From positions 1 through 40,527 of IMG/VR virus record IMGVR_UViG_3300034022_000863: DNA of 40,527 bases; one strand, given 5' to 3'. The translations under genes were made by a program, and so were the position numbers. The DNA is from a virus. Below the pieces are notes generated by a model. That model saw only the letters and a list, made by a program, of their open reading frames with translations. It did no database searches and was not told the DNA's origin. This document shows, one piece after another, positions 229 to 38,197 of the stretch (positions within the stretch are counted from its first letter, which is position 1; every line of letters begins with the position of its first letter).

Positions 229-557
229 CCCGCACCACCAAACCCGGCTACGTCTACTGCCCTCCCGCTAATTACCGGGGGAACCGCAAGTACCCGTTTG
301 AGATGCTCGTGGAGGGCGAGTGCATTGAGCCACCATACGCAGCGAATGATCTCGCCAAGGTCAAGTTTGCCGTGGCCCGGTGGCGACGCCTCCACGGCGA
401 CCCGCTTACCATCTCCCACACCGACGCCGGACTGGTGGTCGGGTGGGCGATGGGAGCCGAGCGTGTCACGCCGCGAGAGGTAACCAAGCGCGGGCCGAAG
501 AAGGCCAAGCCGCCTAAAACTGCACCTCGGAAAACTTCCGAAGCGCCGCAGTCCTGA
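225..557 (+). CDS. Hypothetical phage protein, 110 aa
   Basis: Starts in an ATGA overlap with the preceding gene, which supports translational coupling and this start. The protein begins with a Tyr/Pro/Asn-rich segment (GYVYCPPANYRGNRKYPFEM), continues with a mixed alpha/beta-like middle and ends in a Lys/Pro/Arg-rich tail. I do not recognise a family. Its 3' end overlaps the 3' end of the convergent giant gene by 44 bases, so the two transcription units meet tail to tail with no room for a terminator. The function is unknown. Confidence 0.65.
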   Translation: MTRTTKPGYVYCPPANYRGNRKYPFEMLVEGECIEPPYAANDLAKVKFAVARWRRLHGDPLTISHTDAGLVVGWAMGAERVTPREVTKRGPKKAKPPKTAPRKTSEAPQS

Positions 558-3500: not shown

Positions 3501-6500
3501 GCGCCTGCTGGCTGCGAATCCCGTCAGCCCGTTCGGCAGCGCTCTTGCGGAACTCTCCGGTCACTGCGGCCACGACCTTGTTGAGGGCGTCGGGGGAAAG
3601 GACCTTGCTCAGTTCGCGGCTAGGATCACGCAGCGAGGCTTCCAGTTGCTCGACCGTCTTGCCGGTCAGAGCGGCGTCCATGGCCACGTCGTTGACGCTG
3701 ATTTTGAGGCGCTTCAGTTCGTTCTTCAGCACCGTGTTGAGTTGCTTCTCGCCGTAGGCTTTGCCATCGGCGAACGACTGTCCGGTCAGCATCTGCATGA
3801 ACCCACGGATCTTGTCGGAACTGGTGATGTTGGCAGAGGCAGGATCGGACTGGAGCAGGTCGTAAACGGCCTGCACGGACTGCGCTGCCAGTTGTGGGTT
3901 GGCCACCACGAGGCCGAAGGCGAGGGTGACGTTGTCCCCGCCAGCTTTGAGGTCGGCGGGGAGCCCAGCCTTGGCCATCATGGTGGAGACGATGGCGTCC
4001 ACAAGGACCTCTTTGTCCGTCCGGGTTTTGGCGGGACTGGTGGAGGGCTTGACGATCTTGTCGAGCAAGCGGTTGATCCGGGCGGCGACGATGTCTTGGA
4101 TTTCCCCCTCGGGAGGAGCCTCTTTCGGGATCGGTGCAGCCTTTGGCTTGGCCTTCGCCTTAGGCTTATTGAACGCGCTGAGTATCTCATCGATACTCTT
4201 TTTAGTTTCAGCCAAGGCTTGCTCCAAGGTCTTACCGCTGTCTTCAATCTTCTTGATTCTAGCCGCAACATTGGCGCTGCGCTCTTCGGGAGTGAGCGAG
4301 TACGTCCCGTCCTTGCGTTTCAGATAGGCGTATACTTGGAGCAACTCGGTGAGGTCATCAATCTTTCCGCTCAGTTCCGCCCCAAGGAGTTCCTGCCCTT
4401 CTCGGAACCATGCTGGAAGATCCTCCTCGGTTTCGGCAGGCTTGACCTCGTCAAGGACCACTTCGCCGACGTTGGAGGTTTCTTCCCCCCTCACCACGGC
4501 GGCTACCCGCTGGCCGAGCATGGACGTCATGGCGTCTTCGGGTGCGGTGTTGATTGCCTCGTTGCCTAGACCCTCCATCTCCTCTCTGACGGTCGTGGCG
4601 GCTTTGTCGAAGTCGTTCTTGACGTTCTGCTTGCCGTCGAACGGCAGCAGTTGCTCCGCATGTCTCACCGTCATCGCAGGGTTGTTGGCGATGTTGTTGA
4701 AGATGTCCGCTGCCTTAACTTGACGACCGGGAATAGCTAATTGCTCTCCCATCAGGGCACCGATTTTGTCTGACTCGCGTTTGGCGAGTTCTTGAGACAT
4801 AGGGTCGCGCTCGGGGTTGGTGGACTCGTTTAGCAGGTCCCGCGTGTACATGCCTGCGTACGCGCCGAAGGTCATGTCTTGGTACTTACCTTTAGCGTTA
4901 AGCCGTAATTCCTGAATGAACGCCATGTGCTGGGCCACCGTGAATCCCTTGTCTACATTGGCGTCGTAAAGCGGCAACGCCTGCTCTATGGCATCGTCCA
5001 TGGTCTGACCCTCGTAGGTCTGATTTTCCATCAGCACGCGCACCCGCGTGCCCGCTTGGTTGCGAGCAACGTTGGAAGGCTTGGTGACGGCGGGGGCGAG
5101 GGAGAAACGGATGTCCGGGGATGTGGTGTCGAACCGCTGGGATGGCAGGATGATCTTGCCGTTGTCGTCGTAGGTGATCGGGTCGGCGGACTTGATTCGT
5201 TCTGGCCTGTCACTGGTGAATACCTCAGGTTCCCCTCGATAATAAGGATCACTCAAGTAAAAGCGGCGGACATATTTCCCGTGGTTTGATGCGTAGTTTT
5301 TATTGCCGGTGAACCAAAATTCTGGATACTTGTCCTTAGACTTACTCAGATCAAAAACGTCGAACTTTGAGTCGGAAGCGTGCCACACCGGCCCCACGTT
5401 ATACCCCGCAGCTTTCGCCGCGTCATCGACGATCTTCTGCTGCGCCGCCACGTCTCCGCTCTCGACCGCAGCCACGTAGGCTTTGTCCTGCGGGGTGGCT
5501 GGGGCGAGGGAGAAGCGGGTGTCGGCAGAAACGGAAGGCGTCTTTGCCTTCCGTGGCGCGTTTGTTGGGTGGGTCATGATCGCCGTCTGTCCGACGCGCC
5601 GTTGTACCTCAAACCCGTATTTACCGAGGAGAACCTCCATTCCGGGGTTTGTCACCTCTACTTTGAACGCCAGATCGTCGCGCCCGTCGCTCTCTTGTTG
5701 GAACAGGCTGAACGCTTCTTGAGCCAGTTTTTCTCCTACACCCTGACGTTGGGAAGCCGGACTCACGACGACATCAAACGAAAACTCGTCTCCGTCCACT
5801 TCGGTATAAAGTCCGCCGACGATGTCACCTTTTTTATTGGTGGCCACTGCCTTTAGCTCCTTGCCGCGCAGAATCCCGACGCCCGTCTCCTTGGCGATTT
5901 TTGCTACCGCAGTATCTGCTTCATATGGGTCAACACCGCCTTCTTCTGCGTCGTACTCATCCGCTGCTACGTATTTTACTTCAAAATTTCCGCCTTTTGC
6001 GGCTGGGGCGAGGGAGAAACGGGTGCCACTGGCGAGTCCTACGTTTACTGACGCATCTGCGGGATCAATGTCCTCACTTGAGTAGGGCGGGATCTCTCTA
6101 CGCTGACTCGGCGTGAAACCTTGGCGGGCTTGCACGTCTCTGGATTCAATCTCTCCCGCTGCGCTTCTATACTCGGCGTTGGCAAATTCCCACGGGACAA
6201 GTCCCGACTCAATGGACGCTTTTCTGTCTTTCAACGCCTCAACTTCTTTGCGCAACTCGTCGGTCCGCCGGTATTTCTCCGTCAGCTTGTCTCCAAGAAC
6301 TTTCTCCGCAATACCAGCTTCGAGTTTTTTAGTGGCTGCTTTTATCGCGTCGGATACTTCTTTCAGATCAGACTGATAGTTGCTGCTAACTTCGTAGCGT
6401 TTTCTGGCCCGCAAAAGGTTCTGCCTTTCTCCGGGCGACGAACCGAGCGCAAACCCTTCGTAGTTCTGAATCCAATGCTGAATTTCATGCAGCAAAACGC

Positions 6501-9500
6501 TCGTGCGGTCTACCCCATCCATGACAGAGCGCAGCGTCACATAACTGTCGCGGCCAAACGTGACAAAACTGAATGAGGCTTCATTCGTCTTCATGGACGG
6601 GTCGGTCTTTACCTGTAAGTCTTTCAGTTCTGGATATACCTTGAACAGCGCCTTGTGGTCCATGACCTCGGCGAGGCGGTAGCGTGACCTCTCAGTCGGT
6701 GGGGTAAGGCTCTTTACCTTATCATCCGGCACCTCAAATCTCATCTTTCCGTCGTATTTTCCGGGGAACCAGCCGGTCACTGCCCGGACCTCCTCGGAGG
6801 TCTTCCCGGCGGCAATCATTGCTTCGGCGGTTTTTAGGAAGTTTTTCTGAGGCTCACTCATCTCGGCCATTCGCCCGGCCAGCGCCATCGCCTGCACCGG
6901 CGCGTTCGTCGCCCGCTGTTGCAGCTTCCCGGCCAGAATCTGCCGGTTCACCTTCTTGTAAAACTGCTCAAGACTCATGTTAGGGTCAAACCCCTTGGAG
7001 TACATCAGGTCGTCGAACCACTCGCGCACCTTGGCGAGGAACTCCTTGATGGCCCGTGTCATCTTGGCGTTGCCCGCGTAGGCTCTGAGCCACTCGGCTC
7101 CGTTGTTGGCCAACCCGGTCACCATTGCCTCCTCGGTGATCTGCTCGGGGCTCATGGTCATTCCAGCCTCGGTGACATACCGGTTGACGATGGCCTGACG
7201 CAAAGGTGAGTCGGCCAGCAGCGCGGCTCCTACATCGTAAAGCGCCCGCTGCTCAGTAAACAAAGTGGGGGTGAGCAGGTGAGTCGTCTCGTGGAGCGGC
7301 GTGTCCAGAGTCATCCTCCTCTGGTTTAAAAAGATAGCAGGCTTGCCGTCCACCGGGGTGGTCGATCCTGCGACAGGAGGGGCGATGACGCCGGGAGCCA
7401 CCCCGGTGTTGTTGATGACGAACGGAGCGGTGGTAAGGCCGAGCGATTGGATCGCCTCAATCATGCTCTGCGCACCCTCGACGGTCAGTCTGCCAGTCTG
7501 GTCGATCAGGTCGTTGGGCGTGGCTCCTTGTGACGCCACTGCTGGCGTAATCGGCGGGACCGCAGGCGTTTGCGGCGTGACGGGTGGTGCCTGCTCCGTC
7601 ATAGGAGGGACCGCACCCGCTGGTGCTGTCACAGGTGTCGCCGCTGGTGCCGTTTGCGTGTCCAACTCAACCGACAGGATCACGTCTTTGTTAAGGATCA
7701 CGGACTCAGGGAGACCCCTGATGTCGATGCCTGAAATAATGTCCACGCCTTGGTCAAGGAGATCCTGCCGGTCTTTGAGACTGAGCCTTTCGATGGCTCC
7801 TCTGGCTGCGACCCGCATGGCCCGCGCTCCCGGAGCAATAGCCAGCCGGTTTTTCGGTCCTTTGTATTTGGCGGCGGTTTCGGCTGGCCCTGCGTAGAAC
7901 CCACCGAAGTCTCTTCCGCGTTTGCCTTGTTTTGCTCCGGTCGTCCGCATTGGGTCGATGCTATCCAGCCCCTCAGGAAGTTCTCCCGAATGGAATAGCT
8001 CTGTGGGAGGGGCTTCGGTGACTCCCGTAAAACGTCCTGCCACGACTGGCTCGCCAACAGTCGGCGGCGTTTGCGCCGCCGTGGGTGACGCAGCAGGCAT
8101 AGCACCCTGCGTGGGTGCAGCGCCGGTCGTCTTTTTAAGCACCGGCAGGTCGATGAAAACAGTTCCGTTTTCCCATCTGACGTTTCCATCTCCGAGGCTG
8201 GGGTCAAAACGCCGCAGCATTTCTACCAGCATGGGGCGTACTGCCAGAAACTGCTTGCCGCTTGTAATACTTATGGGGCCAAATTTACCGTCTTTATCTA
8301 CGGGTATCGGCAAGTCGTTTACTTTACTCTCTCCGGATATAGCCACCTCGGTAGTGACCAACGACCCGTCTTCGTTCCGCAGCAGTTCGTACCCTTTGTC
8401 AAGTTGGGACGCGATGAATTTAAGTCCATCCGTGGATACTGAGGTGTCTTCCGTGTATTCGTGACCTTCTGGAAGTACACTCTGTAGATCCTCCATCATG
8501 GATCTGGTGACGCCCGGTTTTTCCGTTCTGCGTTCCAGCTTCGACGTAAACCGATTGGTCGGATTCCCGGCGGCGTCATACTCCCGCGTGTACGCGATGA
8601 AGTCGTTGTCCCCAAACGCGGCAATGTACACGTCGGTGCTCCCTGTCCGTGGGTTTACATACTGCGCCAAGCCGTACCCATCGCGCTCTTCGTAAGTTTG
8701 AAGTGCAGCGTCTTCGCTTAGTTTCCCGCCAAAGTTTGTCGTGTCCGGGAAGAGTTCGGTATTCCTCGGGACGGTCGTAACAGGTGCTGCTGGCGCTGCG
8801 GGCGCTGCGGGTAGCGTCTCCGCCGCAGGAAATGCTTCTGGCACGGCTCCCGGAACTGCCGCCGCCGCAGGTAACCCTTGCGGCAAGGCTGCTGGAAATG
8901 CCTCCGCAGGAGTTGTCTCTGCAAATCCGGGTGGCGGAGGTAGCGCCCCGGCAGCAGGTGCCAACGGGTCAGCGATGGTAGGATCAAACGCAGGATCGAG
9001 TGCATCGGTTCCCGGAACTTGCGGAGCAGGGGTAGGTTGAAACTTGGCTCCCGGATGTGCAGCCGCAGCTTCAGGATCGTTAGCCGCTGCCGCTTGCTGG
9101 GCCACCCCAGCGCTGATAGCCTCGGAAGGTCTCGGAGCAACGGGAGGAAGGGGACGCATCAAATTGACGCCGCCGAAGAACGCGCCGCCGATGGCACCAC
9201 CGGCTCCTGCTTCGACGTTGCCCTCAAGTATTCCGGGGGTTTTCACTCCTTCTGGAGCGAAGGTTGAAGCGACGAGGTTGGACCCCACGTTGGCAGCGAT
9301 TTCTTCCACCGTGTTCTCTCCCACGTCGGCGAGGAACCCGCCGGTCCTTCTTGCCGCGTTTGCCCCAAGCCCGCCAAGTCCGGCGAGCCTGCTCATCGTG
9401 TTCAACTCGGAACCAAGGCCGAAGATGTTCTCGGAAAGCATCTCGGTGGCCGCGTTACCAAGGACCATGCCCATGCGCTCCGGACCTTGGATGCCGTATC

Positions 9501-10092
9501 GGTCGGCCTGTTGCGCCCCGCTGCCCGCGCCCGAGGCAAGCATGGTGGTGTTGGCGGCGATTCGCCCGCCCAACTGGGCGCTGGCGGCTCGGGCGGCAGT
9601 TTGGGCGGCGACCTCGGCGGCAGTTCCGCCTACCAACTCGGCCCCGGCACCCAGTGCTCTGCCAATCCTCATCCCTGCCATACCGGGCGCGAGGAACCCG
9701 GCCACGTTGCCAAGCACGTTGCCGGTGAAGTTGGTCTTCTCCATGGACGGGTTGACCGTCAGGTTCTCCGTGACCGCCGTGTCCATGTCGCGGGCAGCTT
9801 GCTCGATGGCTTCGCTGCCGGTGAGGGCACCGACGCCTTGGACAGCGGAGGTGAAGGTGGAGGCCGCGCCACGTCCGGCGGCACTGGCGAAGGACGAGAT
9901 GTACCCTTGGCCGTTGTCGTATTCCGTTATGTGCTGGTTGCGGAGATTGTTGAGGTTAACCTCGTCTATCCCAGTGGCTTTTAATTCTGGAAGAACCGTG
10001 GCGTCATACCACTGCTGCCGGACCAACTGTTGTCCAGAAGTGGGTAGACTCTGAAACTCTTCGTCGGCGATAATTTGCTCCCATGTTGCCAT
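514..10092 (-). CDS. Giant polyvalent internal virion/ejection protein, 3192 aa
   Basis: One uninterrupted reading frame and last gene of the virion operon, starting 6 bases after the upstream stop. Order seen: residues 60-180, Ala/Gly-rich membrane-like segment; 315-445, Pro/Ala linker; about 695-800, ART-like (ELFHSG, GGFYAG); 925-1040, zincin with HETTH at 934-938; 1150-1355, segment with HEIQH at 1202-1206 (LPD23-like); 1370-1510, GNAT-like fold (SPASQRQGVGEKL near 1445); 1540-1660, second ART-like segment (VWHAS, FWFTG); 2190-2310, long coiled coil; about 2510-2600 and 2800-2950, hydrophobic segments including a membrane-type helix. RFSLAPA occurs near 1357, 1525 and 1661. Proteins of this type are thought to be packaged and injected with phage DNA, carrying effector domains against host defence. 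The position after internal-virion-like genes fits that role. The enzymatic assignments are by motif only. Confidence 0.85.
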   Translation of the reverse strand: MATWEQIIADEEFQSLPTSGQQLVRQQWYDATVLPELKATGIDEVNLNNLRNQHITEYDNGQGYISSFASAAGRGAASTFTSAVQGVGALTGSEAIEQAARDMDTAVTENLTVNPSMEKTNFTGNVLGNVAGFLAPGMAGMRIGRALGAGAELVGGTAAEVAAQTAARAASAQLGGRIAANTTMLASGAGSGAQQADRYGIQGPERMGMVLGNAATEMLSENIFGLGSELNTMSRLAGLGGLGANAARRTGGFLADVGENTVEEIAANVGSNLVASTFAPEGVKTPGILEGNVEAGAGGAIGGAFFGGVNLMRPLPPVAPRPSEAISAGVAQQAAAANDPEAAAAHPGAKFQPTPAPQVPGTDALDPAFDPTIADPLAPAAGALPPPPGFAETTPAEAFPAALPQGLPAAAAVPGAVPEAFPAAETLPAAPAAPAAPVTTVPRNTELFPDTTNFGGKLSEDAALQTYEERDGYGLAQYVNPRTGSTDVYIAAFGDNDFIAYTREYDAAGNPTNRFTSKLERRTEKPGVTRSMMEDLQSVLPEGHEYTEDTSVSTDGLKFIASQLDKGYELLRNEDGSLVTTEVAISGESKVNDLPIPVDKDGKFGPISITSGKQFLAVRPMLVEMLRRFDPSLGDGNVRWENGTVFIDLPVLKKTTGAAPTQGAMPAASPTAAQTPPTVGEPVVAGRFTGVTEAPPTELFHSGELPEGLDSIDPMRTTGAKQGKRGRDFGGFYAGPAETAAKYKGPKNRLAIAPGARAMRVAARGAIERLSLKDRQDLLDQGVDIISGIDIRGLPESVILNKDVILSVELDTQTAPAATPVTAPAGAVPPMTEQAPPVTPQTPAVPPITPAVASQGATPNDLIDQTGRLTVEGAQSMIEAIQSLGLTTAPFVINNTGVAPGVIAPPVAGSTTPVDGKPAIFLNQRRMTLDTPLHETTHLLTPTLFTEQRALYDVGAALLADSPLRQAIVNRYVTEAGMTMSPEQITEEAMVTGLANNGAEWLRAYAGNAKMTRAIKEFLAKVREWFDDLMYSKGFDPNMSLEQFYKKVNRQILAGKLQQRATNAPVQAMALAGRMAEMSEPQKNFLKTAEAMIAAGKTSEEVRAVTGWFPGKYDGKMRFEVPDDKVKSLTPPTERSRYRLAEVMDHKALFKVYPELKDLQVKTDPSMKTNEASFSFVTFGRDSYVTLRSVMDGVDRTSVLLHEIQHWIQNYEGFALGSSPGERQNLLRARKRYEVSSNYQSDLKEVSDAIKAATKKLEAGIAEKVLGDKLTEKYRRTDELRKEVEALKDRKASIESGLVPWEFANAEYRSAAGEIESRDVQARQGFTPSQRREIPPYSSEDIDPADASVNVGLASGTRFSLAPAAKGGNFEVKYVAADEYDAEEGGVDPYEADTAVAKIAKETGVGILRGKELKAVATNKKGDIVGGLYTEVDGDEFSFDVVVSPASQRQGVGEKLAQEAFSLFQQESDGRDDLAFKVEVTNPGMEVLLGKYGFEVQRRVGQTAIMTHPTNAPRKAKTPSVSADTRFSLAPATPQDKAYVAAVESGDVAAQQKIVDDAAKAAGYNVGPVWHASDSKFDVFDLSKSKDKYPEFWFTGNKNYASNHGKYVRRFYLSDPYYRGEPEVFTSDRPERIKSADPITYDDNGKIILPSQRFDTTSPDIRFSLAPAVTKPSNVARNQAGTRVRVLMENQTYEGQTMDDAIEQALPLYDANVDKGFTVAQHMAFIQELRLNAKGKYQDMTFGAYAGMYTRDLLNESTNPERDPMSQELAKRESDKIGALMGEQLAIPGRQVKAADIFNNIANNPAMTVRHAEQLLPFDGKQNVKNDFDKAATTVREEMEGLGNEAINTAPEDAMTSMLGQRVAAVVRGEETSNVGEVVLDEVKPAETEEDLPAWFREGQELLGAELSGKIDDLTELLQVYAYLKRKDGTYSLTPEERSANVAARIKKIEDSGKTLEQALAETKKSIDEILSAFNKPKAKAKPKAAPIPKEAPPEGEIQDIVAARINRLLDKIVKPSTSPAKTRTDKEVLVDAIVSTMMAKAGLPADLKAGGDNVTLAFGLVVANPQLAAQSVQAVYDLLQSDPASANITSSDKIRGFMQMLTGQSFADGKAYGEKQLNTVLKNELKRLKISVNDVAMDAALTGKTVEQLEASLRDPSRELSKVLSPDALNKVVAAVTGEFRKSAAERADGIRSQQAQARVLQDMIDEKNMVIADFKAARAKKEKAAKDAKKKVKEYEDLWTRLKNGEDKAAIRQAERQVRAAQAADMKAEADWVAHQSAESEAISMEAQRSSRDLMEQQNKLNATDRKFRLAINRKNRKAMRRKLAKRGGFMIPLDQSEAEELLDQKPKTVLQYLAREYGFSLADIIGMARDQDRQTTLEAKVGNLAQALGLTKEQADKFMGPVIAEAMKYISEARKKDVSQRINRVLTPVIGKKKTQKTEAEKLIKLAEMGGLTADNVEKLLLNSKNAKEFTPEFRQELIDLIAQANDPHLTEETRDSLKGKFLDKIKAARGITVLSLLGEWTMSNIFMSILSTFKVNFVWGFIKAASDSGIFITISGPAAARADAIAKGVTPAPRLAVAKVLFRQWLRGYAVNMQHNAAFMWSEGLGKDESDMTSQFANTGMEILSRVKDAQIQWSNEGKVLPKSAQKVIKAMAAFGKYTRRTMVASDFINRTSAFEMSKVLEAVKVMQARGGAASTATIQREIDDALYGGNFKDAFAKANKQADDEIAEKKLGKAERGIRVGRIMDEMLGKNLGLTEKQTQEYLQGGRENAKRWSLADTTEGIFGEISNLMLAATRKIPALKFALPAIRMPIAAFSQTLDWTPYGFLRLYAIDKNSNETQSFTNYLFNRNGEYGNWNKPVGGVPAYRKTDLMAKATIGSMIMIGLCIKAALSFDEDEDEADFYITGLGPSDPAENKAWREKGNAPFTFRFNGGTGFRFQESPFYGMLAPIAAWSDAHRYGKPGEAESDRIAYAMGKTLAGFQEAVVMKNLSDILAGGSSYSADGQLRNWSKATSRLASNVLMPRLGGEINTILYGPQDQKALGWGGRALANVPFVPSFNNKPAQDFLGREIHTKREGMLGEIYPALAHRVIAPSLDDPILNFVAKMSPNFLATTRRFKDGTRVMDNYEFVRKWNAAAGVKIREYLTPERMASYERKLAKDKPDAQTEFNVEINKIRTAALRKFSEVQF

Positions 10093-24906: not shown

Positions 24907-25503
24907 TTAGGAGAGGTCGTCCATGTCCTCGTCCTCGGCGTCGAAGCCGTCGGCGGTAGGCTTGCTGGCACCAAAGGGTTCGCCCTTGGCGGCAAACTGG
25001 ACAACTTCCAGTCCGCAGCAGATCTTCTTGCCGTAGGCCGGATTAGCCTTTTTGTCGCCCTTGCCGTTCAGGGAGAACAGGTTGATGCGGGCGTTGACGT
25101 AGTCTCCGGCCTCGGGGTACTTGATGTCCGTCTTGTCGGTGATGACACGCGGTTTCCCGGTGGAGGGATCACGCTTGTTGTCGAGGATGAGCGGAGCACC
25201 AAGGGAGTCGGCGCGGTTGGCGCTGAGGAACCACTTGTTCTCGAAGCCTTTGTAGACCTCATCTTCCTTGTTGGTATTCAGGTTGCCGTCGCGCAGGGCG
25301 CTGTCCTTGCCGGGAGGGACATTGCCCTTGAACTCTGCCGTGGCGATGGCCTTGATGGCCGCTTCCACTTCCTTCAGGGTGGCGTCATCCTCGATGATGA
25401 GGGTGCAGCCGTAGCGGGGTTTGCCCCCTTGGATGGCTTTGGCTTCGGTCAAGCTGTCGCTGAAGGCGAGACGGACGTTTTTCAATGTGAGTGTAGTATT
25501 CAT
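24907..25503 (-). CDS. DUF2815-family single-stranded DNA-binding protein, 198 aa
   Basis: Recognised from the family start (residues 1-15, LKNVRLAF), the repeated Gly/Asn/Lys-rich OB-fold-like body (GGKPRYGCTLIIEDD, GDYVNARINLFS, KKICCGLEVVQF) and the acidic C-terminal tail (DAEDEDMDDLS), the hallmark of phage SSBs such as T7 gp2.5, where it contacts polymerase and helicase. DUF2815 proteins regularly accompany DUF2800 nuclease and family A polymerase genes, as they do here. It would coat single strands at the fork. Confidence 0.92.
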   Translation of the reverse strand: MNTTLTLKNVRLAFSDSLTEAKAIQGGKPRYGCTLIIEDDATLKEVEAAIKAIATAEFKGNVPPGKDSALRDGNLNTNKEDEVYKGFENKWFLSANRADSLGAPLILDNKRDPSTGKPRVITDKTDIKYPEAGDYVNARINLFSLNGKGDKKANPAYGKKICCGLEVVQFAAKGEPFGASKPTADGFDAEDEDMDDLS

Positions 25504-25570: not shown

Positions 25571-25798
25571 TTAGGTAGTCCGTTGGACGAAGCGCCCTTT
25601 GACGCCAGCTTCTTCATTCAACCAAGTGATGAAGGTTTTGAAACTGGAGTTTTTCTGGTAGCGCGAGGTGTAGGCTTTGAGGTTCAGTCCGTCGCCGGGT
25701 TCAAACAGGGTCTCCCCGATTTGCAGAGCGTCAAACATGAGCTTGCGGCGGACGTGGATGCGGGTGGGTGGTTTTATTTGCCGTTCAATCTTGATCAT
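25571..25798 (-). CDS. Hypothetical basic protein, 75 aa
   Basis: The start overlaps the last 14 bases of the DUF2800 gene, consistent with coupling. The protein is basic at both ends (MIKIERQIKPPTRIHVRRK, VKGRFVQRTT) with a central QIGETLFEPGDGLNLKAY. It resembles small nucleic-acid-binding phage proteins, but no family was recognised. It sits between the Cas4-like nuclease and SSB genes, so a replication-associated role is plausible. Confidence 0.6.
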   Translation of the reverse strand: MIKIERQIKPPTRIHVRRKLMFDALQIGETLFEPGDGLNLKAYTSRYQKNSSFKTFITWLNEEAGVKGRFVQRTT

Positions 25799-27008
25799 CG
25801 GTGGTGGTGAATCCTTCGGTTGGGGCGGGAATGGCTGGGCGCTTGTCTCCGGAAAGGGCCAAAACTGGCTTTCCGTTTGCCCTAACTGTTAAAGCATCTA
25901 CCGCCGTAAGGATTTCTTTCGGAACCTTGCAGTCTTTAAGCAACTTTGCAACCTGAGTTGGTGAGACGAGTTTGCGGGTGAAAAGCTGGTCCTCGGAAAG
26001 CAGTCCCTTGACGGCCTTGACGGCGGACTCCTCGTCGGCCCAAGCGCGGTTGCCTTGACGGCCTTCCACGAGCTTGGTGCCTCTGACGGGATTGCCCTCC
26101 ATGGCCTGCTGGTGGAGGTACTTGGCGCAGCCTTCGATCAGGCCGATCAACTCCTCGGACCGTTGGTGGATGCCGAGGATCTGCTGCTGCGTGAGGGTGG
26201 CCAGCACCGGGATGTCGATGGTATCCACCAGTTCCAATTCGCACTCGAAGGCGTCAAGCAGCTTGGGGTCGATCCGGGCCAGCGGCTCTGCGGCCCTGAC
26301 GTGGCAGACTTCCTTGGCCTTGCACCACCGGCAGGTCTTGTAGTCGGGGGCGAAGTCGAGTGCGGCCTCGGGGCCGTTGAGAATGACGTCGGCAGCGGCG
26401 GTGACGTGGCTGATGCTGGCGCGAAGCTCGCCGATAGTAAGCTGCCAGAGCTTCTCGGTCTCGCCGCCAGTGTAGCGGGGCTGGCAGATGCGGATCTCCA
26501 CGGGGGTGGAGTCAGGGAAAGAAGTGGGGTGGTTGAGGATCAGGCTGTAGGCGTAGATCGCCAACTGCTCGTTGTGCTCGGCCTCGACGGGGACTCCGAT
26601 GCCGTATTTGAGGTCGGTGACGCAGATCATCTCGGGGCTGATGATGGCGTGATCGACGGTCCCGGTGTCCTGTGGGAAGTAGAACAGCGGCACCTTGGTC
26701 TCCACGAGGACTTGACCCTCCCAGCGGTTGGCCAGAGTCTGGCAGAGCCGGGTGTAGTCGAGGACGGGAGCGAAGTCTTTGGGCAGGTCCTTTTCCTTGA
26801 GTTTGCCGAGGAGGATCTGCTCGGCGTAGTCGTGCGCTTGTGTACCCTCGTCGGCGTATATGCTGCCACGCTCGGCGTTGGCCACCACCTTGCGGATGGC
26901 TGGGTCAGGGGACTGGCGGCAGGCTTCGGTAAACGCGATGGACGCGGTACATTTACTCCACGTAGACGCGGAGGAGGGGGAGAGCTTTGAGTGGGTGGTT
27001 GGTGGCAT
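25785..27008 (-). CDS. DUF2800 Cas4/RecB-like nuclease, 407 aa
   Basis: A PD-(D/E)XK exonuclease of the DUF2800 family. Seen: an early Cys20 (WSKCTASIAF), the nuclease core with Glu103, Asp119 (GTVDHAII) and Asp132-Leu-Lys134 (VTDLKYG), a QLAIYAYSL helix, and a later CRWCKAKEVC cluster. The Cys20 plus three clustered Cys is the layout that holds an iron-sulfur cluster in Cas4 and AddB. The start is placed at 27008 (MPPTTHSKLSPSSAS), one base after the upstream stop. It probably resects DNA for annealing by the neighbouring SSB. Confidence 0.9.
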   Translation of the reverse strand: MPPTTHSKLSPSSASTWSKCTASIAFTEACRQSPDPAIRKVVANAERGSIYADEGTQAHDYAEQILLGKLKEKDLPKDFAPVLDYTRLCQTLANRWEGQVLVETKVPLFYFPQDTGTVDHAIISPEMICVTDLKYGIGVPVEAEHNEQLAIYAYSLILNHPTSFPDSTPVEIRICQPRYTGGETEKLWQLTIGELRASISHVTAAADVILNGPEAALDFAPDYKTCRWCKAKEVCHVRAAEPLARIDPKLLDAFECELELVDTIDIPVLATLTQQQILGIHQRSEELIGLIEGCAKYLHQQAMEGNPVRGTKLVEGRQGNRAWADEESAVKAVKGLLSEDQLFTRKLVSPTQVAKLLKDCKVPKEILTAVDALTVRANGKPVLALSGDKRPAIPAPTEGFTTTDDQD

Positions 27009-29282: not shown

Positions 29283-29654
29283 TCAGGCTGGTTTGTGACA
29301 GGGCATCCAGTCCTCGCCGGGGCGTTTGATCTCACAATTTTTCTGAAGAGACTCGTAGGTTGACCAAGTTCTTTCCCCACAGTAAATCTGGATTTTTGCG
29401 ACGCTTGTTACCATCCACCATTCGGGAAATCCTATACTCCTGATCACGCTCCCCGGCGGCACATCCTCCGGCCCCAGCGGGATCATTACTGGTTCGGGCT
29501 TGATGCGGTAGTTTTCCGGGCGCTCAATGAATTTTACGTCTTTCACATCATCCCAGACTATTGATTGTCCACACTCGATTCCATGCTGGATCGTTTTGCC
29601 ATCGACAACGGCTTGGACAAGTGGCAGGTAGAGGTGTGCGTTTTCTTTTGTCAT
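29283..29654 (-). CDS. Hypothetical phage protein of a widespread early type, 123 aa
   Basis: The opening MTKENAHLYLPLVQAVVDGK and the segment ENYRIKPEPVMIPLGPEDVP belong to a type of small protein I have seen in many phages, always of unknown function. The second half is a beta-like domain (GSVIRSIGFPEWWMVTSV). It lies between a CoiA-like nuclease gene and the 210-aa gene, with a 71-base spacer on the nuclease side. Confidence 0.75.
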   Translation of the reverse strand: MTKENAHLYLPLVQAVVDGKTIQHGIECGQSIVWDDVKDVKFIERPENYRIKPEPVMIPLGPEDVPPGSVIRSIGFPEWWMVTSVAKIQIYCGERTWSTYESLQKNCEIKRPGEDWMPCHKPA

Positions 29655-33577: not shown

Positions 33578-33605
33578 TTGACACCCCGACAACCCTGTTC
33601 ATAGT
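33578..33605 (+). promoter_or_regulatory. Promoter of the rightward small-gene array
   Basis: Perfect TTGACA at 33578-33583, 16-base spacer, then CATAGT at 33600-33605. The -10 ends 9 bases before the ATG at 33615, so the first transcript would have only a few bases of leader. No Shine-Dalgarno is present. Confidence 0.6.
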
Positions 33606-33614
33606 GACCTCCAC

Positions 33615-33962
33615 ATGACCCGTTCTGACATTCTATCCGCCGCTGCCGCCTGCGTCACGCAGGACCGCAACAACACTTATGGTCCGCCCGAGGACTCCTT
33701 TGGCGTCATCGCCGCCTACTGGTCCACTTACCTTGGCGTGCCACTGGAAGCCGCGCAGGTCGGCACCCTGCTGGCCCTCATGAAGATCGCCCGCCTTCAG
33801 CACAACCCCTCCCATGCCGACTCCTACGTCGATGGGGCTGGTTACCTTGCCTGTGCCGGGGAGATCGCCACCAAGACCCTCTCCCTCGCGCCGCTGGGAC
33901 AGCCCGTGGTAGTCCGTCCGCCCTCCGTCGTCCCGTCCTCGTTCGACGACTGGACGTGGTAG
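33615..33962 (+). CDS. DUF6378-family protein, 3' end altered by a tandem duplication, 115 aa
   Basis: The core RNNTYGPPEDSFGVIAAYW, LLALMKIARLQHNPSHADSY and GAGYLACAGEI matches DUF6378, a helical phage family reminiscent of MazG-like proteins; no activity is established. An exact 50-bp tandem duplication at 33905-34004 shifts the frame, so the protein now stops at 33962 after FDDWTW. Without the second copy it would run on to a TGA at 34067-34069 that overlaps the next ATG in the ATGA style of this operon. The start is fixed by the promoter 9 bases upstream. Confidence 0.85.
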   Translation: MTRSDILSAAAACVTQDRNNTYGPPEDSFGVIAAYWSTYLGVPLEAAQVGTLLALMKIARLQHNPSHADSYVDGAGYLACAGEIATKTLSLAPLGQPVVVRPPSVVPSSFDDWTW

Positions 33963-34004
33963 TCCGTCCGCCCTCCGTCGTCCCGTCCTCGTTCGACGAC
34001 TGGA
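33905..34004 (+). repeat. Exact 50-bp tandem duplication
   Basis: Bases 33905-33954 are repeated without a mismatch at 33955-34004. The unit length is not a multiple of three, so the second copy truncates the DUF6378 gene. The absence of divergence suggests a recent event, slippage, or an assembly artefact. Confidence 0.9.
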
Positions 34005-34065
34005 TGAGCGCACGCACTGCACCGATCAACGCCATCTGCTCCGACGAGACACCCCTCAACCAGCC

Positions 34066-34515
34066 ATGAGTTGCGCCCCCGTCATGATCCCCAAGGGAAC
34101 CCAGTTCGGGTTCTACACCACGACCAGCGCCACCCCGGTCTCCGTCAAAGGCAACAACCACTGGGAGGTCAAGTGCATCTGCGGCACGGTCAAGCTGTGC
34201 AAAGGGGCCAATCTCCGGTCCGGCAGGTCCAACTCCTGCGGATGCAGTGCTGGCGACACCATCAGCCGCAAGGCCATCGTCCGTCTGAGCGCCAACCCGC
34301 GCACGTCGTCAAGCTCACGGGAGCCACGCGAACCCCGCGAGGCCAAAGCGCCGATGTACCCCGCCAAGCCCACCACCGCAGAACTTGCCGTCCTTGCCGC
34401 GCTTCCGCCTGATCTTCGACTCGCCCTTGCCATGCGCAAGTCCGGAGCCAAGTGGGGGGAGGTGCTGGAACTCACCGGACTCACCCGCGAACAAGTAGAA
34501 GCCCTCCAACCATGA
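34066..34515 (+). CDS. Zinc-ribbon plus helix-turn-helix-like protein, 149 aa
   Basis: The N-terminal half carries a zinc-ribbon pattern with two C-x-C pairs (KCICG at about 36-40 and SCGCSA at about 57-62) separated by a basic GANLRSGRSN, typical of small phage proteins. A Ser/Arg/Pro linker leads to a C-terminal helical region (DLRLALAMRKSGAKWGEVLE, LTREQVEAL) resembling a helix-turn-helix. It is probably nucleic-acid binding. The stop overlaps the next start in ATGA. Confidence 0.75.
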   Translation: MSCAPVMIPKGTQFGFYTTTSATPVSVKGNNHWEVKCICGTVKLCKGANLRSGRSNSCGCSAGDTISRKAIVRLSANPRTSSSSREPREPREAKAPMYPAKPTTAELAVLAALPPDLRLALAMRKSGAKWGEVLELTGLTREQVEALQP

Positions 34516-34823
34516 ACACCGACCTGTCTATCCCCCGCGAAGCCGTCGCCGCTGCCGGTTGCGCCCTCCAGTTCACCATTGCCGAACTTAGCTCGCAACT
34601 GAGCAACATGCCCGAGGACGATCCCGGTCGCACCGGCGTTGCCGAGGCGATGCACGTCATGCAGGACGCCGCCAAGTCCCTGTACTCCGCGCTGCCCGTC
34701 CCCGCTGACCTGAGCGACCGGGTCAAAACCCTTGAGGACGCCATCCGTTTGATCGACGACACCACCATCGAACTGGTAGTGGCCAACATCTGCCGGGAAA
34801 CACTGGAGGGTAGCAAGCCATGA
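34512..34823 (+). CDS. Hypothetical helical protein, 103 aa
   Basis: The start is fixed at 34512 by the ATGA overlap with the upstream stop (junction CTCCAACCATGA); the longer frame to 34452 is out of context. The protein is helical and acidic (AAGCALQFTIAELSSQLSNM, TLEDAIRLIDDTTIELVVAN) and ends in SKP. No family was recognised. It is one of the chained accessory genes. Confidence 0.7.
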   Translation: MNTDLSIPREAVAAAGCALQFTIAELSSQLSNMPEDDPGRTGVAEAMHVMQDAAKSLYSALPVPADLSDRVKTLEDAIRLIDDTTIELVVANICRETLEGSKP

Positions 34824-35005
34824 AACGCGCCATCTACGTAGGCAAATCCTACCCGTGGATCAGATACGGGATGACCGGCACCCATTGGTCGGACTCGTTT
34901 GGCGCGGCGTTCCGCCCGGACGGCGACCCCGTGGCGATCATTGTGCCTCGGAAAGACCTCTACATCCGGCCTAAAGACGAAACCAGACACTGCCCCAAAC
35001 CATGA
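34820..35005 (+). CDS. Hypothetical protein, 61 aa
   Basis: Starts and ends in ATGA overlaps (junctions AGCAAGCCATGA and CCCAAACCATGA). It is a beta-like small protein with GKSYPWIRYGMTGTHWSDSF and a basic C terminus ending in PKP. No family was recognised. Its position in an unbroken chain of overlapping genes supports it as real. Confidence 0.65.
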   Translation: MKRAIYVGKSYPWIRYGMTGTHWSDSFGAAFRPDGDPVAIIVPRKDLYIRPKDETRHCPKP

Positions 35006-35214
35006 TCCCAATCGACAAACTGGAAGAGACGTCCTCTCCGTTTATCAACCAGTGGGAACTGCTGGTGCTCCTCGACTGCTTGCACGGATCGTTGCGGTTA
35101 GAGGATGGCGGAAACATCTGGAAATGGAACACCGAACAACGGAAAACCGTCTTGGAGTCCATTTACCAGCGGATGCACAAGACGGCTATCGACACCTCAA
35201 CTACAAAACCATGA
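35002..35214 (+). CDS. Hypothetical protein, 70 aa
   Basis: Starts in an ATGA overlap and ends in the TKP-stop junction (TACAAAACCATGA). The product is helical with INQWELLVLLDCLHGSLRL followed by IWKWNTEQRKTVLESIYQRM. Its middle resembles small helical phage proteins of unknown function. No motif allows an assignment. Confidence 0.65.
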   Translation: MIPIDKLEETSSPFINQWELLVLLDCLHGSLRLEDGGNIWKWNTEQRKTVLESIYQRMHKTAIDTSTTKP

Positions 35215-35402
35215 ACGAACGAACTCTCTACCAGCAACTCACCGAGCTCGAAAACATCTGGGAGACATGCATTGCCGGATGGGAGCATTGCGCCCGACTC
35301 GCCACCAAAGCAGGCGACGACGATTTAAGCCTGCGCAACTCAATCCGCGCCAGAACCACTCAGCATTGTCTGGACGAACTGCGCAAAGTCACAAAACCAT
35401 GA
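35211..35402 (+). CDS. Hypothetical helical protein, 63 aa
   Basis: The start at 35211 is set by the ATGA overlap; a longer frame beginning at 34899 runs through the two preceding genes and is a shadow. The protein is helical (LYQQLTELENIWETCIAGWE), with two Cys and a tail ending in TKP at the next ACAAAACCATGA junction. No family was recognised. Confidence 0.65.
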   Translation: MNERTLYQQLTELENIWETCIAGWEHCARLATKAGDDDLSLRNSIRARTTQHCLDELRKVTKP

Positions 35403-35746
35403 GCGACACCCCAGAAACAGATAGCCTGCCGCAGCCTTGTCCGGCCCGTTGTCAGGAATGCCATAACATTGGCATTGTCGGAGATGAGGGGCCGGGTCGT
35501 AAAAATGCCATCAACGAGTGGCACCCTTGCGACTGCCCTAAAGGCGATGAACACCGCCCCCGACGAATGGAGCGATTCCATCCCGAGTGGACAGACGCGG
35601 AGATGGATGCAATCTCAGAACTCGCAAAAGCCAAGGAGATGTCACAGAAAAACATCATCAGGCAGGCCGTGAGGCTCTACCAAGCTGCCGTCTTGGGGGA
35701 CTGCACTATTGTCTGGCCGAACAACGTGATACCCAAACACCCATGA
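35399..35746 (+). CDS. Zinc-ribbon plus ribbon-helix-helix-like protein, 115 aa
   Basis: Begins with the shared tag MSDTPETD. Residues about 14-52 have CPARCQEC, then GIVGDEGPGRKNA and HPCDCPKG, a zinc-binding layout repeated in the gene at 36280. The C-terminal half (EWTDAEMDAISELAKAKEMS, KNIIRQAVRLYQ) looks like a ribbon-helix-helix DNA-binding fold. A small regulator is plausible. The stop lies in the variant junction CAAACACCCATGA, and its last codons NNVIPKHP recur as a 9-codon ORF at 37578. Confidence 0.7.
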   Translation: MSDTPETDSLPQPCPARCQECHNIGIVGDEGPGRKNAINEWHPCDCPKGDEHRPRRMERFHPEWTDAEMDAISELAKAKEMSQKNIIRQAVRLYQAAVLGDCTIVWPNNVIPKHP

Positions 35747-35952
35747 ACGAGACCATCTACGAAACCCTCGAATCAGCAAAACAGGCTTGTAAAAAATACA
35801 TCGAAGCGGTGCAAGCCCTTCAAGACCAGTTTGGCATAAGCGAAGAGCTTACCGATTCCTGCGCCAGGTCAATCTTCACCGGCCAGTATTGGGACGAAAC
35901 GGGCCGACTTAAGAGCTTCGGATTCACTAACCTGGATTTAACAAAACCATGA
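35743..35952 (+). CDS. Hypothetical helical protein, 69 aa
   Basis: Coupled at both ends by ATGA overlaps, ending in the LTKP junction. The N-terminal half is a helix (YETLESAKQACKKYIEAVQA), followed by FGISEELTDSCARSIF. No family is recognised. It has no sign of membrane segments or metal-binding motifs. Confidence 0.65.
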   Translation: MNETIYETLESAKQACKKYIEAVQALQDQFGISEELTDSCARSIFTGQYWDETGRLKSFGFTNLDLTKP

Positions 35953-36191
35953 CCGACACCCCAGAAACAGACGACCTGCTAAAAATAAATATACCCGATC
36001 TTGTTGATCTCTGCCGCAAGATGGAGCGGGAGCGCAACGAATGGAAGGAAAAAGCCGAACGCCTGCAAGCCGCCTGCAACAAATGGAGCGAGTCCGAAAT
36101 GCTGCTTACTAACTGCCCAGATTGCCGGGAGTTTCGCGGGCATGGGCATGAATGCAAATCTGGGCAGGACACCCCAATTACAAAACCATGA
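35949..36191 (+). CDS. Coiled-coil protein with Cys motif, 80 aa
   Basis: Opens with the shared tag MTDTPETD and continues with a charged coiled coil (LCRKMERERNEWKEKAERL), then a C-terminal CPDC-x10-C cluster (NCPDCREFRGHGHEC) that could bind zinc. It ends in TKP at a TACAAAACCATGA junction. The tag and the ERER coiled coil recur in the gene at 37604, so the two are probably duplicates of one cassette. Confidence 0.7.
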   Translation: MTDTPETDDLLKINIPDLVDLCRKMERERNEWKEKAERLQAACNKWSESEMLLTNCPDCREFRGHGHECKSGQDTPITKP

Positions 36192-36259
36192 GCACCACAG
36201 AAACAGATACAGACGTGCCTTGTTCGGCAATTACCATTCCGTTGACCTCAACGAAATAA
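36188..36259 (+). pseudogene. 23-codon remnant of an MSDTPETD-type gene
   Basis: Starts at the conserved ACAAAACCATGA junction and begins MSTTETDTDVP, close to the shared N-terminal tag, but stops after 23 codons at 36257-36259. The following 20 bases form a leader (ACCACCAACCAT) for the next gene. It looks like a truncated cassette, or a short coupling ORF kept for reinitiation. Confidence 0.45.
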
Positions 36260-36279
36260 TCCATCTCACCACCAACCAT

Positions 36280-36897
36280 ATGAACACAAAAGACCTGATC
36301 AAAACACTCAACACCCATGCCCCGCTAGAAATGGCGGAACTCAAAGCGGCGCTGGCCAAAAAACTCAAGCCCTCGTGCGAAGACTGCGGCGGAACGGGGA
36401 TATGCGGGGATGAAGGTCCAGGAAGGCATAACGCCCACTTTGAATGGGTGCCGTGCGACTGCCCTGCCGGGACAATCCACAAGTCCATACCAGAAGGCCT
36501 CCCTGAACACAAAGCTGACCAGATACGCACAAAAGCAAGAATCGAAGTGCTTGAGGATGCCCTCAACGAGATATTCCACCGCACGGACTCCACCACGGCG
36601 CAGATGGAAATCATCCAGAAGGTGCTGCCCCAAGGTGGCGAAGCAAAGCCGCCGCAAAAAGGGCCACCTCCCCCTAAATCATTTCCCGAAAAGCTGCTTT
36701 CTCTTTCTGACTGGCTGCGGGGCCGCGCCCAATCAACAGCGCTCAAATCGACGACAATGACAATGCTGCAGGACCGTGTGGCCCGCTTGAGTCAAAAATA
36801 CGGCCACGACAGTCGCAAATCGAACGTCCCAGCGGTGGCACCGGCCACGCTGGACTCCACTTCACCTGACGAGGTTCATCCTCTCCCAAATCACTAA
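36280..36897 (+). CDS. Zinc-ribbon protein with helical tail, 205 aa
   Basis: The start at 36280 has the leader CACCACCAACCAT. Residues about 33-65 hold CEDCGGTGICGDEGPGRHNA and VPCDCPAG, nearly the same zinc-binding motif as the 115-aa protein at 35399, so the two are paralogues. A helical part follows (RIEVLEDALNEIFHR), then a Pro-rich linker and a basic C terminus. The start by the 298-codon longer frame would run through two earlier genes and is rejected. The function is unknown. Confidence 0.7.
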   Translation: MNTKDLIKTLNTHAPLEMAELKAALAKKLKPSCEDCGGTGICGDEGPGRHNAHFEWVPCDCPAGTIHKSIPEGLPEHKADQIRTKARIEVLEDALNEIFHRTDSTTAQMEIIQKVLPQGGEAKPPQKGPPPPKSFPEKLLSLSDWLRGRAQSTALKSTTMTMLQDRVARLSQKYGHDSRKSNVPAVAPATLDSTSPDEVHPLPNH

Positions 36898-36908
36898 CTA
36901 ACACCAAT

Positions 36909-37130
36909 ATGACCATGAACCAACTGATCAACCAACTCGTCACCGATGGTGGCGCAATCGTATCCTCGGGCGACTGTTCGCAAATCGAAATCGCCAATGC
37001 ACAATCCACTGGCCGATTCGCGGTCCGCGACGACGGCATGGGATTTGTCCGCCGCACCAAAGAATGGCTTGCACTCCAACTGGCACGCGAGAAAGCGCAC
37101 CCAAACACGAACGGCAAATTCTTCACATAA
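36909..37130 (+). CDS. Hypothetical protein, 73 aa
   Basis: The leader is ACTAACTAACACCAAT with no Shine-Dalgarno; a second ATG lies 6 bases on, so the start may be 36909 or 36915. The middle GRFAVRDDGMGFVRRTKEWL suggests a small beta-hairpin and helix, ending in a basic tail. No family was recognised. Confidence 0.65.
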   Translation: MTMNQLINQLVTDGGAIVSSGDCSQIEIANAQSTGRFAVRDDGMGFVRRTKEWLALQLAREKAHPNTNGKFFT

Positions 37131-37135
37131 CGCCG

Positions 37136-37249
37136 ATGGTGATGGACGGCGCGAACCCGCTCTACCTCGCTAATAGGCTTCCTCGCAGCTCCATCCACCA
37201 ACTTGTTCATCCTTGCCCGAATTACCTATGGATACCTTATCACCAATGA
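37136..37249 (+). CDS. Possible coupling ORF, 37 aa
   Basis: An ATG 5 bases after the previous stop opens 37 codons that end in TGA at 37247-37249, which overlaps the ATG at 37246 in ATGA fashion. It keeps the chain of overlaps unbroken across an otherwise empty 97-base gap. The encoded peptide is not recognised; its value may be to carry ribosomes to the next gene. Confidence 0.35.
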   Translation: MVMDGANPLYLANRLPRSSIHQLVHPCPNYLWIPYHQ

Positions 37250-37581
37250 CCGAACCCGAAGCGCGAACCGTGGCACTCCTGCGGATGCACTTCGGCTGCA
37301 CTTTCGGAAAGCTCGCCATGTGCTGCCAAGCCCTATGGGGTGCCGACCAATGCGAACAACTCACCGGATACCGCTACGGCGCACCGATGGGACAAGGTAT
37401 GGTGATGGCCATGGAGGATTACTTCCGGCTGGAACGCTGCGAATCCGACAGCATGAGCATGGGTGAGCAACGATGCGCGGCCTGCGGACTGTCGCAGGCG
37501 GCAATCAGCCGATCACACGACACGCCCAAGCAATGCGGATTCTGCGGAGAGTTCGCGTCAATGTGGAATTCTATTGAATGA
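37246..37581 (+). CDS. Zinc-finger-like protein, 111 aa
   Basis: The start is taken at 37246 (MTEPEARTVALL) because it sits in an ATGA overlap; an in-frame ATG at 37228 is the alternative. An N-terminal helical region (HFGCTFGKLAMCCQALWGAD) precedes a C-terminal treble-clef-like Cys pattern (CAACGLSQAAI, then CGFCGEF). It is probably a small metal-binding, perhaps nucleic-acid-binding protein. Its stop overlaps a 9-codon ORF that leads to the next gene. Confidence 0.65.
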   Translation: MTEPEARTVALLRMHFGCTFGKLAMCCQALWGADQCEQLTGYRYGAPMGQGMVMAMEDYFRLERCESDSMSMGEQRCAACGLSQAAISRSHDTPKQCGFCGEFASMWNSIE

Positions 37582-37607
37582 ACAACGTGATACCCAAACA
37601 CCCATGA
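37578..37607 (+). CDS. 9-codon relay ORF between two coupled genes
   Basis: Begins in an ATGA overlap with the previous stop and ends in an ATGA overlap with the next start. It encodes MNNVIPKHP, identical after Met to the C terminus of the 115-aa protein at 35399. The DNA at 37581-37607 exactly repeats the 3' junction of that gene. It probably keeps translational coupling across a copied junction. Confidence 0.45.
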   Translation: MNNVIPKHP

Positions 37608-37864
37608 GCGACACCCCAGAAACAGATAACGCCCAATTCGGGACCGGACGGGTCAGCGTGGACTTTGCGCGGCGGCTTGAGCGCGAACGGGACGAAGCAA
37701 CGGAACGAGTTACCGAAGCCGAAATCCTTCTCGCCGATCTGGCGTCAGGCTACTGGCGCGCCATCCTCAACGACCAAGACCCCAGCGGTGAAGGTCTCAT
37801 GGGAGAGCGGGTCGCTCAGTATTGGGCGAGGTATTGCAATGATCCATTAACCACAAAACCATGA
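37604..37864 (+). CDS. Coiled-coil protein with MSDTPETD tag, 86 aa
   Basis: Starts at a copied CAAACACCCATGA junction, has the shared tag MSDTPETD and then a coiled coil (FARRLERERDEATERVTEAE) like the gene at 35949. The C-terminal half is unrelated to that gene (GLMGERVAQYWARYC) and ends in TTKP at the standard junction. A recombined duplicate of the 35949 cassette is the simplest reading. Confidence 0.7.
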   Translation: MSDTPETDNAQFGTGRVSVDFARRLERERDEATERVTEAEILLADLASGYWRAILNDQDPSGEGLMGERVAQYWARYCNDPLTTKP

Positions 37865-37965
37865 CAAACGATGACATCACCCTCTGCTTTATCGCCGGAA
37901 TAATCTGCTCAATCATCACATTTCTCATGCTCCTGATCGAGTATCTGGCAAACAAATACCTATGA
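37861..37965 (+). CDS. Small single-span membrane protein, 34 aa
   Basis: MTNDDITLCF leads into a membrane helix (IAGIICSIITFLMLLIEYL) and a short tail, NKYL. It starts at the CACAAAACCATGA junction and ends in an ATGA overlap with the next gene. The next peptide has the same layout and a similar start, so this is a tandem pair. A holin-like or antiholin-like role is possible, but this is unproven. Confidence 0.55.
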   Translation: MTNDDITLCFIAGIICSIITFLMLLIEYLANKYL

Positions 37966-38063
37966 ACCCCGACGACATCACCACCTGCCTGATCTCCATG
38001 ATGGTCGGCACCGTCACCGCCTGCATCCTGCTCCTGAGATACTGGGAAGTCAAAGACCGATGA
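37962..38063 (+). CDS. Small single-span membrane protein, second of a pair, 33 aa
   Basis: MNPDDITTCL is followed by a membrane helix (ISMMVGTVTACILLLRYW) and a charged tail. The DDIT-x-C start is shared with the 34-aa peptide just upstream, pointing to duplication. Both ends overlap neighbouring genes in ATGA. It is a candidate for a membrane-active accessory peptide. Confidence 0.55.
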   Translation: MNPDDITTCLISMMVGTVTACILLLRYWEVKDR

Positions 38064-38197
38064 GCCCCCACCTCCGCGCCATCAGAAAGTTCCGCCGCCA
38101 CCGTCGCCGCTTTCTTATCGGGAGGTTAATGTCTGTCCTGCGCCGACGGGCTAAAGCCCGATTGATGAACGGCAGGTGGTGTCACATCTCAGACTGA
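38060..38197 (+). CDS. Small Arg-rich protein, 45 aa
   Basis: Starts in an ATGA overlap and is strongly basic (AIRKFRRHRRRFLIGRLM, RRRAKARL). It could bind nucleic acid or membranes. The last 16 bases overlap the convergent zinc-ribbon gene. A CGGGC-TAAA-GCCCG hairpin (38147-38160) lies inside the coding sequence without a T run. It is the last gene of the array. Confidence 0.45.
   Translation: MSPHLRAIRKFRRHRRRFLIGRLMSVLRRRAKARLMNGRWCHISD

Follow-up and report, generated by a model that had tools for sequence, protein, structure and literature searches.

In the ninR region of phage lambda, small genes are chained by ATGA stop/start overlaps. In Cluster K mycobacteriophages, a 13-bp constant sequence (the start-associated sequence, SAS, and its extended form, ESAS) stands directly in front of numerous small non-structural genes, most of which point the same way; it sometimes overlaps the previous stop codon and is suspected of a role in translation initiation (PMC3203893). 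Lambdoid boundary sequences, as cited in PMC3029335, are short, conserved and located at gene borders, where they are proposed to be homologous-recombination sites that create mosaics, and the promoter early stem-loops (PeSLs) of T4-like phages, as cited in PMC4503421, lie between small genes and mediate shuffling among related phages. How phages trade in tiny accessory genes is a long-standing question. Here we describe an array of seventeen main plus-strand genes (23-205 aa) at 33615-38197 of the IMG/VR record IMGVR_UViG_3300034022_000863, whose full 40,527 bases form our window. We argue that it is probably an array of exchangeable cassettes, in which the constant joint serves as a portable overlap of stop and start and, in addition, directs recombination.

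The joint is a 12-mer, ACAAAACCATGA, with five exact copies in the window (starting at 35203, 35391, 35941, 36180 and 37853), each one a stop/start joint, and zero copies on the minus strand. First-order Markov shuffles give an expected count of 0.002 in the array and a maximum of 1 in 3000 shuffles, and allowing up to two mismatches yields 12 matches in the window versus 2.7 expected. An earlier sequence-only reading had counted about 17 tiny genes, placed this junction at the start codons at 35211, 35399, 35949, 36188 and 37861, and remarked that the upstream proteins all end in TKP; each of these claims holds, the five endings being TTKP, VTKP, LTKP, ITKP and TTKP. Its statement that nearly every stop overlaps the next start was somewhat strong, but the enrichment behind it is real: the 4-nt ATGA overlap, a feature of termination-reinitiation pairs, is present at 11 of 16 array junctions versus 3 of 26 in the remaining phage (Fisher p = 4e-4).

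That reading also understated the size of the constant element. Before TPETD-type genes the constant part exceeds the 12-mer and reaches ~31 nt, ACAAAACC followed by ATGAGCGACACCCCAGAAACAGA, encoding MSDTPETD. A ACAAAACC-type leader precedes most TPETD-type starts in related arrays, and the TPETD codons are identical among unrelated bodies, more than codon usage predicts. Cassettes without TPETD share a joint of only ~6-16 nt. A second repeat, GAACAACGTGATACCCAAACACCCATGA (the 3' constant element), stands at the end of gene 35399 and again at 37580, where the copy is likely a remnant of an exchange. Elsewhere (L numbers denote loci in related contigs) the NNVIPKHP tail is found on unrelated bodies, namely a gene of L072 and L075, a 79-aa gene of L099 and L105, and a DNA methyltransferase of L109; in L066 and L070 it lies inside a gene. 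In L098 and L100 a different leader, AACACCCAAACAACC, recurs before three unrelated genes without TPETD and is perhaps another start-associated sequence.

As in ninR, the small genes of the array are linked by stop/start overlaps; we know of no constant coding start such as TPETD in ninR. The likeness to SAS is a constant sequence immediately before several small-gene starts, here at five exact joints. However, SAS has the 13-bp consensus GGGATAGGAGCCC with a Shine-Dalgarno (SD) core, AGGAG, 3-7 bp before the start, whereas the array joint is ACAAAACC, abuts the ATG, includes the stop/start overlap and enters coding sequence, with no SD at 16 of 17 starts. Cassette exchange, which is seen at the array joints, is not reported for SAS in PMC3203893. 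Like the lambdoid boundary sequences, the joint is short, conserved, located at gene borders and a proposed recombination site; the lambdoid proposal concerns particular module borders, whereas here one sequence serves many joints and codes for both genes. Like PeSLs, it is a repeated regulatory element between small genes that is linked to shuffling, but PeSLs have a promoter and a stem-loop, whereas neither was found at the array joints, nor a terminator, and the signal is probably translational. The array joint is a variant of these phage shuffling joints (SAS, boundary sequences and PeSLs) that differs as a coding stop/start overlap with an N-terminal tag, common to phages with different cores. 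A limited literature search found no description of the array junction or of TPETD starts. In the array, boundaries recur within coding sequence, and comparison between phages reveals both breakpoints and an empty site; homology-guided cassette trade is therefore directly testable in it, and the joint plus TPETD is also a marker with which to locate fast-changing accessory genes.

Cassette-sharing contigs were collected by pattern and protein scans, and their genes were called with our own script. This gave some ten viral contigs, the majority of which have a different core; every relative is a metagenome contig. The core of the window, on the minus strand, encodes a primase-helicase-like protein, a family A DNA polymerase, a DUF2800 exonuclease and a gp2.5-like annealing protein. 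Sharing is largely local to the array, because the primase-like protein had no relatives in viral_contigs and none in eight cassette-sharing records. When the window was compared with the fetched loci by blastn, mainly array genes matched; outside the array, the stretch at 28.6-29.7 kb has matches of about 70% in L063 and L078, and a few loci have one to 19.6 kb. One gene outside the array (29283-29654, minus strand) has relatives that adjoin cassettes in L063 (8999-9364) and L040, and in the window it stands apart from the array.

Tiny genes are 80-100% identical in DNA across contigs while flanked by different neighbours; for single cassettes amid unrelated neighbours the figure is 80-95%. 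Gene 35399 (family F07a) has 90% DNA identity in L066 and L068, where the neighbours are others: the upstream gene begins MNERTLYQ in the window, MSDTPETHIQPR in L066 and MTNTPRTD in L068, and the downstream gene begins MNETIYET in the window and MSTPETDSLPQL in L066 and L068. Gene 35743 (F08), with 90-95% DNA identity in L063, L064 and L070, follows four different upstream sequences in four phages, by an in-frame fusion in L063, and its identity begins at CC/ATGA, with none upstream of that point. The 3' part of the 35949 cassette region (36026-36228) is common to L063, L066 and L070. Across eight phages, the window among them, F03 (MKRAIYVG) precedes seven different genes, each joined via a 4-nt ATGA, and across all variable adjacencies the exact 4-nt overlap is retained in 41 of 54.

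Gain and loss are visible against a frame of genes, F04-F05-...-F02, that is common to eight contigs. Upstream of this frame, L066, L068, L070, L110 and L113 carry Sak4-like F20, SSB-like F11 and F12, or most of these. Between F03 and F02, L110 has an empty slot. L072 and L074 have two cassettes each there, L113 about three and L066 six, while L075 has two plus F06 and L068 five plus F06; L070 is without F03. Over the final 60 nt of F03, L110 and L075 have 98% identity, yet one continues with F02 and the other with a cassette. The sequence-only reading had suggested looking in related phages for whole genes that are gained, lost or reordered at the junction, and this is what the relatives display. 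The comparisons give good support to whole-cassette exchange at the joint.

We counted breakpoints as distinct ends of identity blocks over all array pairs, with 5000 circular shifts as the null. Of the 5' ends, 36 of 66 lie within -12 to +3 of a start codon (3.3 expected; shift maximum 12), and 29 of 66 3' ends lie within -3 to +30 (7.0 expected; shift maximum 19). On both counts, mosaic breakpoints are concentrated at the conserved sequence, one property of a recombinogenic boundary. The cleanest block, 798 nt with three cassettes, is about 100% identical between L066 and L068, whose contigs are about 83% identical elsewhere; its limits, -8 to +26, fall within the element, and unrelated sequence lies directly beyond.

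We propose that the array is a tailed-phage operon made up of small accessory genes, in which one cassette would be a single gene, bounded by its own CCATGA start and the CCATGA that follows. The leader ACAAAACC, A-rich and weakly folded, would be the start region for the downstream gene and would also code the upstream C-terminal T-K-P, so that a cassette should be translated whichever other one, with few exceptions, precedes it. The joint, lengthened in many cassettes by the MSDTPETD codons to ~31 nt, would provide the homology with which phage recombination proteins swap whole genes between phages with differing cores. Candidate agents are the gp2.5-like annealing protein and exonuclease in the window and the Sak4-like protein and SSB in relatives. 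Annealing proteins, which promote gene shuffling in phages (PMC3945230, PMC5499656), are encoded in both kinds of phage, and the ~31-nt element has nearly the length, about 30 bp, that is cited as the homology minimum of RecA and Red (PMC2327257). From these comparisons we infer that shared homology, rather than random breaks plus selection, drives the exchange. The double role that the sequence-only reading proposed for the junction, as reinitiation signal and as recombination homology, fits the data.

ATGA overlaps couple translation by termination-reinitiation, and Bacteroidetes manage coupling without SD (PMC6728339); the array joints probably work by termination-reinitiation as well. The earlier claim that SD is absent stands for 16 of 17 array starts, the exception being 34820 with GGAGG at -15, but is not peculiar to the array, because the minus-strand genes of the phage are likewise without SD consensus and show a tendency to A before ATG. 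The joint abuts the ATG, is A-rich and is weakly folded; special folding was considered and rejected, low structure being mostly base composition (z about 0 to +1.2). A second phage group is informative on what keeps a joint constant. Here two fixed genes, of 64 aa and 109 aa, enclose a slot that is present in 19 distinct versions (L021, L037, L058 and 16 more loci) and contains 1-8 cassettes, TPETD-type and others, with one cassette in 16 of 19. Inner joints of the multi-cassette slots mostly read like AAGGAGG.....AAATGA, a true SD, and the proteins there therefore end K-E-x-x-K. Since two different constant joints serve one architecture, this suggests that translation is the first reason for joint constancy.

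Several points weigh against the proposal. Of the 66 ends of each kind, 30 (5') and 37 (3') fall outside these ranges, some within genes, and whole-gene exchange of any kind would leave many ends at gene borders once selection had acted. Because the relatives are all metagenome contigs, misassembly is possible at single joints; the same arrangements recur in separate contigs (F07a-F22-F10 in L066 and L068, F03-F07b-F01 in L072 and L075), which argues against misassembly, although single cases of it may exist. The shared part of non-TPETD joints is under the usual homology minimum, and guidance by homology is less certain for these cassettes because it is so much shorter.

In the strongest alternative, the joint is kept as a translation signal only and TPETD as a protein motif only, and illegitimate recombination plus selection for intact translated genes produces the mosaics while the repeat does not guide crossover. 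Phage mosaicism is usually put down to illegitimate recombination (PMC3029335), but random breaks would seldom keep an exact ATGA through dozens of rearrangements, as in the 41 of 54 variable adjacencies. TPETD is indeed kept at the protein level with other codons in distant phages, whereas its codon identity between unrelated bodies is above codon usage. The different, SD-bearing joint of the second group implies that the constant part follows translation needs, and few bases are common to the joints of non-TPETD cassettes; against this account, identity blocks extend into the element and stop inside it. We judge this account unlikely, although by no means negligible.

Tandem duplication and divergence in one lineage, with shared joints and TPETD starts as paralogy rather than exchange, is very improbable. 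In its favour, genes 35949 and 37604 share the TPETD..ERER type and the window has two copies of the 3' element, but window cassettes are nearer to single cassettes of other phages (90-95% DNA identity) than to each other, with unrelated neighbours; moreover, unrelated bodies follow the same start, gene orders vary and an empty site is found (L110). Least credible of all is a dedicated site-specific, integron-like system inserting cassettes at the joint, which would suit rows of one-gene cassettes with constant joints, zero to six between fixed genes, but has against it that no inverted repeats, stem-loops or attC-like repeats were found at the array joints, leaving the cassette ends without the attC-like inverted-repeat site of an integron, that folding is weak only, that the joint is coding sequence and that ends spread over about 35 nt, also inside genes. 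Nor do the cassettes resemble morons, single inserted genes with their own promoter and terminator: array genes overlap, and no promoter/terminator pairs flanking cassettes were found, the one promoter-like site being at the array head.

Our preferred reading, of a joint that carries translation and guides exchange, could be extended to a general plug-in system, which we regard as possible rather than probable. One joint would then carry the stop and the start signal, supply the C-terminal tail and the N-terminal tag (TPETD), and provide homology for recombination. Phages whose cores are unrelated would take tiny genes from a common pool through it, and the joint would be adapted to the translation type of each group (leader without SD versus SD). 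Loci L009-L061, with 49 distinct proteins, contain a wide small-protein family, M[ST][DN]TPETD...LERERDEAR, in which eight N-terminal halves each occur with at least two different C-terminal halves, the change falling at the LERERDE motif, as though module swapping also took place inside the gene. Among isolated phages, tblastn gave no match for gene 37604, and only the ribbon-helix-helix part of gene 35399 matched, in Rhizobium phages. A search for a host through the CCATGA-TPETD pattern in genome_contigs returned 18 matches that we judged to be chance, as the proteins were unrelated and without the LERERDE part.

Table 1. Coordinates of the array genes, constant elements and candidate recombination genes in the window.
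Feature	Coordinates	Strand	Remarks
Promoter-like site TTGACA-16-CATAGT	33578..33605	+	Array head; from consensus scan, only good one there; not evidence of function
Gene 1, DUF6378 / phrog_474 family	33615..33962	+	3' end cut by tandem duplication
Cassette, F06 family	34066..34515	+	149 aa; homologues with 57-59% aa identity in L007, L008, L033, L034
Cassette	34512..34823	+	103 aa; ATGA overlap at both sides
Cassette F03, MKRAIYVG	34820..35005	+	61 aa
Cassette F18	35002..35214	+	70 aa; C-terminal TTKP; 79% DNA identity in L063
Junction ACAAAACCATGA	35203..35214	+	
Cassette MNERTLYQ	35211..35402	+	63 aa; C-terminal VTKP
Junction + TPETD codons	35391..35421	+	31-nt constant element
Cassette F07a, MSDTPETD	35399..35746	+	115 aa; Cys-rich + ribbon-helix-helix (RHH_1)
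3' constant element GAACAACGTGATACCCAAACACCCATGA	35719..35746	+	Tail NNVIPKHP
Cassette F08, MNETIYET	35743..35952	+	69 aa; C-terminal LTKP
Junction + TPETD codons	35941..35971	+	Constant element
Cassette MTDTPETD..MERER	35949..36191	+	80 aa; C-terminal ITKP
Junction ACAAAACCATGA	36180..36191	+	
Very short open reading frame MSTTETD	36188..36259	+	23 aa; perhaps truncated cassette
Gene	36280..36897	+	205 aa; GDEGPGR..CDCP segment also found in gene 35399
Gene	36909..37130	+	73 aa; without overlap
Gene	37246..37581	+	111 aa
3' constant element copy	37580..37607	+	After stop codon, mostly untranslated
Cassette F01, MSDTPETD..LERERDEA	37604..37864	+	86 aa; C-terminal TTKP; 5' 75 nt identical to L066
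Junction ACAAAACCATGA	37853..37864	+	
Hydrophobic peptide gene	37861..37965	+	34 aa
Hydrophobic peptide gene	37962..38063	+	33 aa
Basic peptide, F10 family	38060..38197	+	45 aa; cassette in L066 and L068 too
gp2.5-like single-stranded DNA-binding / annealing protein, phrog_112	24907..25503	-	Candidate recombination protein
Exonuclease, phrog_69, DUF2800	25785..27008	-	Candidate recombination protein

Gene 1 of the array, the DUF6378 gene, ends at 33962 because its frame is shifted by a tandem duplication of 50 bp (94%) at 33898-33997. The open frame downstream of that stop continues to the CCATGA at 34066-34069, and the chain of overlaps therefore probably once began at gene 1. Elsewhere, on the minus strand, the protein encoded at 28637-29269 matches phrog_3704, annotated as ferredoxin / host takeover, and an open frame of 3192 codons, without a PHROG match, occupies 514-10092.

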